Shown: piece by piece, positions 25,570 through 27,432 of the stretch | Numbering within the stretch: position 1 is the stretch's first letter | Layout of the letters: the number at the start of each line of letters is the position of its first letter | Assembly: GCA_003818495.1 (NCBI GenBank) | Contig: RPRK01000032.1 | Coordinates: forward strand, 1 to 32,791 | Source of the DNA: Burkholderiales bacterium | Lineage (GTDB): Bacteria; Pseudomonadota; Gammaproteobacteria; Burkholderiales; Burkholderiaceae_E | Direction of reading: 5' to 3' | DNA length: 32,791 nucleotides | Program-made: the position numbers and the translations under genes | Notes under the pieces: generated by a model | Seen by the model: only the letters and a program-made list of their open reading frames with translations | Told to the model about the DNA's origin: nothing | Databases searched by the model: none

Positions 25570-26832
<1,263 letters not shown>

Positions 26833-27066
26833 CGTGGGGGGGGGTGCGGACAGCGTGACGGCTGATCGGAGCCCTGCGGGACGTCCATGGGCGCCTGGGC
26901 GTTATCGCCCGAGTGCGCGTCCCGTCCGGGGGGCTGGGGGGGTGAACCGGCGGGGGGCCGGTCGGAAAAACACGGAGTGAAGCAGGCGGGGTGCGACGGG
27001 CGGATGGGCCCGGCCCTGTCGCCGCGGGACCGATCGCCGGGGTGCCGGGAATCGCCCGCAGCGGGC

Positions 27067-27086
27067 GGGAGCGCTCGCGCGCTCCC
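27067..27086. terminator. hairpin downstream of trxA: GGGAGCGC-TCGC-GCGCTCCC
   Basis: Perfect 8-bp stem with tetraloop, 17 nt beyond the trxA stop. No U-tract, so terminator status is uncertain. Confidence 0.5.
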
Positions 27087-27102
27087 TAGAGAATACGACG
27101 GA

Positions 27103-27432
27103 TCAGAGGTTGGTGTCCAGGAACTGCGTGAGCTGCGACTTCGACAGGGCGCCGACCTTGGTGGCGACCTCTTCTCCATTCTTGAACAGCTTCAGCGTCG
27201 GGATCCCGCGGATGCCGTACTTGGCGGTGATCTCCTGGTTGTCGTCGACGTTGACCTTCACGATGCGCACCTTGCCGTCGTAGTCCTTGGCGACTTCGTC
27301 GAGCAGGGGGGCGATCATCTTGCACGGGCCGCACCATTCGGCCCAGTAGTCGACGAGCACCGGCGCGTCGGACTTGAGCACGTCGGCCTCGAAGTTCGCG
27401 TCGGAAGTGTGGGTGATCTGAGTGCTGGACAT
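27103..27432 (-). CDS. trxA: thioredoxin
   Basis: [63 protein letters not shown]; 109 aa, internal start within ORF 27103..28629. Confidence 0.98.

Follow-up and report, generated by a model that had tools for sequence, protein, structure and literature searches.

We found that the minus strand of the window, by which we mean the whole stretch of 32,791 nucleotides analysed here, probably carries the leader of an autoregulated rho gene, in which C-rich RNA would allow Rho loading and attenuation and the start codon would be kept weak. At the sequence level, this reading is supported by a start without a Shine–Dalgarno (SD) motif, a leader in which C exceeds G, conservation of these properties across three classes, conserved Rho residues and a C9 tract that is predicted to be unpaired. 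We infer promoter use, Rho binding, a termination site and weak translation. Rho is a global regulator, and its level must be held steady. Although attenuation of rho is long established in E. coli, the basis on which rho leaders respond to Rho across bacteria is less clear. Our survey suggests a simple common design, a C-rich leader followed by a start without an accessible SD, in three proteobacterial classes.

The window comes from a Burkholderiales genome (5.34 Mb in 572 contigs) and has a GC content of 72%. On its minus strand, trxA is followed by a 270-nt gap and then by rho (Table 1), so that the leader lies directly 5′ of a true rho gene and has the usual trxA–rho surroundings. The best named matches of the encoded protein are from the Burkholderiales (Lautropia, 88% identity; Burkholderiaceae, 85%). 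Residues F62, F64, R66, Y80, E108, R109 and Y110, which we take to form the cytosine-binding primary site, are all conserved in the window Rho, as are K184 and T185, presumably of the P-loop. A preliminary description of this DNA had placed the rho start at the ATG at 26832, correctly: a gap-free alignment places the MHLSELK start level with those of E. coli Rho and of relatives, and this ATG is kept in close relatives. An alternative start further upstream was rejected, as there is no in-frame ATG, GTG or TTG between the upstream stop and ATG 26832.

Table 1. Features of the trxA–rho region of the window, in order of position.
Feature	Position	Strand	Details
rho, transcription termination factor Rho, 420 aa	25570..26832	−	72% identical to E. 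coli Rho
32-codon upstream ORF (ATG 26888), overlaps rho start	26790..26888	−	probably non-functional
trxA–rho intergenic region, proposed Rho-responsive leader	26833..27102	−	C 126, G 78, T 36, A 30
C9 tract, −12 to −4 of the rho ATG, in the place of the SD	26844-26836	−	direct sequence
36-nt block identical in G000, G007 and G011	26847..26882	−	absent from 71 other family genomes searched
C7-AG-C6 (C7 26942-26936, C6 26933-26928)	26928..26942	−	direct sequence
C6 run	26952..26957 (26957-26952)	−	direct sequence
Hairpin behind trxA, no T tract	27067..27086	−	
Candidate rho promoter TGGACA-N18-TATTCT, overlaps trxA stop	27090..27119	−	1 found, 0.0 expected
trxA (thioredoxin), ordinary SD	27103..27432	−	within-locus control

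Of the strongest C-over-G 78-nt stretches in the window, two fall within the leader, with starts at 27014 and 26880. Over its 270 nt this untranslated region is C-rich and G-poor (C 47%, G 29%), C-richness of leaders being here a measure of composition only. The candidate promoter is the only one in the region, and its spacing and −10 region are largely kept across the genus; we infer from it a transcription start that would give a leader of ~250 nt. No intrinsic terminator was found in the leader, and an Rfam scan of the locus gave no relevant family, its one match, to a human lncRNA model on the opposite strand, being at chance level. The hairpin behind trxA has the form GGGAGCGC-GCGA-GCGCTCCC. 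Strong hairpins directly behind the trxA stop were also seen in L012, L013, L016, L019, L038 and L040; their sequences are unrelated between relatives, with the pairing kept and often no T tract, and the hairpin overlaps the place where the rho transcript would start. We rejected the upstream ORF as a leader peptide: its frame relation to rho is not kept, with an offset to the rho ATG of 56 in G000, 53 in G007 and 54 in G011, and other genus members have no such ORF. At L022 (G011), the ORF begins with a GTG 54 nt 5′ of the rho ATG, is in frame with rho and reads C9 as prolines, and it would give an N-terminally extended Rho in the G011 genome only.

Immediately before rho, the minus strand reads ...TGTCCGCA-CCCCCCCCC-ACG-ATG. 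The three C-run features reported in the preliminary description (C9 at −12 to −4, C7-AG-C6 and an extra C6) are all present where it had placed them, and the start lacks an SD, as it had stated, with no SD motif at −20 to −4. The predicted unpaired value is 0.95 for C9 and about 0.7 for C7-AG-C6. Tracts of this length are rare genome-wide, with ~18 separate tracts of at least nine C among the matches listed (124 overlapping matches in 5.34 Mb). Within the same genome, the pattern C8-N0-8-ATG occurs on the minus strand only at rho and on the plus strand at two places at most. Two contigs of this genome (C140 and C166) contain very long C homopolymers, of about 60–70 nt in C166, that look like assembly or sequencing artefacts. 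When the leader was shuffled, a run of at least nine C appeared in 11–12% of the shuffles and four runs of C6 or longer in 2–3%. Because shuffles of a leader with 47% C give a C9 run at this rate, the unusual property is the C-richness of the leader and not the C9 run as such.

One possible explanation for C9 is neutral composition or homopolymer drift in GC-rich non-coding DNA, in which case only the missing SD would matter, or neither feature would. The shuffles agree with this, as does the difference in tract length between species (C4 to C9), but drift would cover only C9 and neither the phylum-wide lack of an SD nor the C-over-G bias relative to trxA of the same genome, and we regard it as decidedly improbable. 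It is extremely improbable that the runs act instead through the G-rich template strand (G6-CT-G7 and G6), by forming a G-quadruplex at which RNA polymerase would pause within the leader: the G4Hunter score of 2.2 at 26928, a sequence heuristic, is among the top 0.02% for the window, but outside the three closest genomes the runs are not conserved.

Across the genus, the run at the rho start is C9 in this genome, C8 in G007, C9 in G011, C7 in G003 and C5 in G005 and G001, with C4 or less in the remaining members. C9 as a conserved element, which the preliminary description had left to be checked in related genomes, is ruled out by this range of C4–C9, and the tract is short or absent in most relatives. 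On the sequences compared, C9 is a lineage-specific, variable expansion common to three close genomes. As neither its length nor its presence is conserved, any mechanism that requires C9 is therefore lineage-specific at most. A long tract is real, although of uncertain exact length, and a pure assembly artefact is unlikely, because the corresponding position holds C8 and C9 in two separately assembled sisters. The 36-nt block identical in these three genomes lies just 5′ of C9, and these genomes show about 91% identity at the third codon positions of rho. Runs of C7 abutting the rho ATG (−7 to −1), seen in L013 and, independently, in L066 (Mitsuaria), arose in a further lineage too.

Two uses of C9 itself had been proposed in the preliminary description. 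The first is that Rho bound to C9 in the ribosome docking site blocks its own translation directly, apart from or before termination. The tract is well placed for this at −12 to −4 and is predicted to be unpaired, the cytosine-binding residues are conserved, two sisters have C8 and C9, and C7 lies at the start in L013 and, independently, in L066. It is nevertheless short or absent in most relatives, genus included, and a limited, open-licence literature search found no published case. Direct Rho–ribosome competition on C9 is a possible special case that the data do not favour, and we consider it distinctly unlikely. The second, that slippage in C9 phase-varies Rho expression, fared worse and is very improbable. 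A homopolymer of nine could slip, its length differs among the three close genomes, and the in-frame GTG 54 nt upstream in G011 means that a change in length might, in principle, extend the N terminus. However, C9 lies in the 5′ UTR, downstream of the candidate promoter and outside the rho reading frame, where changes in its length cannot shift the rho frame; the upstream start is not conserved, the length differences are seen between species only, and rho is a housekeeping gene.

The missing SD, by contrast with C9, extends far beyond these genomes. We surveyed 169 rho starts with 100 nt of upstream sequence (10 from the genus, 86 from other beta-, 60 from gamma- and 13 from alphaproteobacteria, with class labels that come from search rank and record titles, a few of which may be wrong). 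Seven rho regions in which the start was not clear or the upstream sequence was too short were left out, as were two with wrong starts. An SD motif, defined as GGAG, GAGG, AGGA, GGGG or AAGG at −20 to −4, was found at 0/10 rho starts in the genus, 20/86 (23%) in other beta-, 3/60 (5%) in gamma- and 1/13 (8%) in alphaproteobacteria, or about 14% of the rho genes in the set. Put the other way, all ten genus members lack it, as do 135 of the 159 other beta-, gamma- and alphaproteobacterial genes, including that of E. coli K-12. The preliminary description had named ordinary SDs in relatives as evidence that would speak against it; the rho starts of the relatives do not have them. For comparison, we used named control genes. 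At trxA, the motif was present in 9/10 genus members (90%), 44/51 beta- (86%) and 29/34 gammaproteobacteria (85%), and the other controls ranged from 77 to 100% (rpsB 30/30, rpmE 38/46, recA 23/30); atpD had four usable starts only and carries no weight. The difference between rho and trxA gives P of about 1e-16 in the betaproteobacteria and again in the gammaproteobacteria, for genomes that are related and not independent. Because of this relatedness, the spread over three classes is a stronger argument than the P values.

The excess of C over G is similarly widespread. In the region from −80 to −1, the mean of C minus G was 0.180 for rho versus 0.051 for trxA, and rho exceeded trxA in 112 of the 130 pairs. 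C exceeded G in 96% of the 169 rho leaders, although one genus member, L017, has almost no excess in this region (0.01). In E. coli K-12, the best anti-SD pairing is −0.1 kcal/mol for rho versus −5.9 for trxA, and the last 60 nt before the rho start contain 18 C and 6 G. Judged from these sequences, rho genes of Proteobacteria normally have a C-rich leader that offers no usable SD, in agreement with a Rho that limits its own synthesis. A limited, open-licence literature search found no description of a phylum-wide SD-less rho start, although one may well exist elsewhere.

Where a rho gene does carry an SD motif, the motif tends to be masked in a hairpin. For the 24 such genes, the mean predicted unpaired value was 0.24, versus 0.35 for trxA, 0.44 for rpsB and 0.46 for recA. 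In the Comamonadaceae type, which has an MHLN start, the SD region lies in a stem of at least 5 bp (for example, ACUCC-loop-GGAGU) in 13 of 22 genes versus 1.7 in shuffles, and a few compensating changes were seen (ATTCC/GGAAT in L307 and CCCC/GGGG in L067); this pattern comes from a manual alignment and is no more than suggestive. SD hairpins at −22 to −7 of rho were observed in L071, L129, L130, L305, L311, L313, L316, L068 and L076, among others.

These data bear on whether the region serves the ribosome and not Rho. Under a translation-only explanation, the open, G-poor, pyrimidine-rich stretch, C9 included, would be a standby or S1 site. A start that lacks an SD needs unfolded RNA, the prediction for C9 is an unpaired state, and the composition pattern extends right up to the start codon. 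Such a site, however, leaves unexplained why rho, among the genes compared, lacks an SD in three classes and why its remaining SDs tend to be buried, and the C-over-G bias spans more than 80 nt, which is broader than an initiation site. We therefore consider this explanation unlikely. A more general proposal is that the rho start across Proteobacteria is kept without a usable SD, the motif being either missing or hidden by the C-rich arm of a hairpin, which would let Rho out-compete ribosomes on its own mRNA. The start would then act as a shared sensor of free Rho versus free ribosomes, and poly-C at this site would be the most extreme version of it. We put this forward tentatively and think it rather doubtful in this general form.

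The reading that we prefer, an autoregulated leader that loads Rho, agrees by analogy with published work on rho. In E. coli and other bacteria, the gene is subject to attenuation in its own leader (PMC6582626), a rho R66S mutant shows a 12-fold rise in RNA polymerase occupancy within E. coli rho (PMC12121999), and E. coli Rho chose rut sites in the 5′ UTR and early coding sequence of B. subtilis rho (PMC12350095). In the proposed mechanism, a promoter at the end of trxA would produce a rho mRNA with a ~250-nt C-rich, G-poor leader, onto which Rho would load through its cytosine-binding primary site. When Rho is plentiful, transcription would end in the leader or in early rho. The SD-less start, or in some relatives an SD buried in a hairpin, would slow ribosome loading and leave the nascent RNA unshielded, and the unshielded RNA would keep rho sensitive to the amount of free Rho. 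C9 would be a lineage-specific expansion within this C-rich stretch, where it may contribute to the binding of Rho. The earlier interpretation is therefore supported in part: use of the leader as a Rho loading region agrees with what is established for rho of E. coli and B. subtilis, and the C-rich, G-poor composition, the predicted unpaired state of C9 and the retained cytosine-binding residues of Rho are in its favour, whereas C9 itself is not conserved.

Among known systems, E. coli rpsA has an SD-less, S1-dependent start. The window rho resembles it in lacking an SD and in having a predicted open region before the start, but this region is dominated by C and is not U/A-rich. Poly-C phase variation involves simple-sequence contingency tracts, for example in Neisseria. 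The window has a poly-C tract of comparable length next to a start, but C9 lies outside both the coding frame and the promoter spacer, and variation is seen between species only. With rut sites, the leader shares C-rich, G-poor RNA that is predicted to be partly unpaired; classical rut sites, however, are long, spaced YC-rich stretches, and a lone C9 is not one; the likeness of the leader to them is one of composition. The E. coli/Salmonella rho leader is a known system with attenuation by Rho (Matsumoto 1986 and Barik 1985, as cited in PMC6582626) and control by SraL. It shares with the window the order trxA–leader–rho, the absence of an SD at rho and the excess of C over G before the start, with a trxA–rho gap of about 330 nt in E. 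coli versus 270 nt here. By contrast, the leader in E. coli is rich in A and T, lacks C homopolymers and carries an annotated leader peptide (rhoL), whereas the window leader has C runs of up to 9 and yielded no conserved leader ORF. On this comparison, the simplest reading is that the locus adds a member to the known class of Rho-autoregulated rho leaders.
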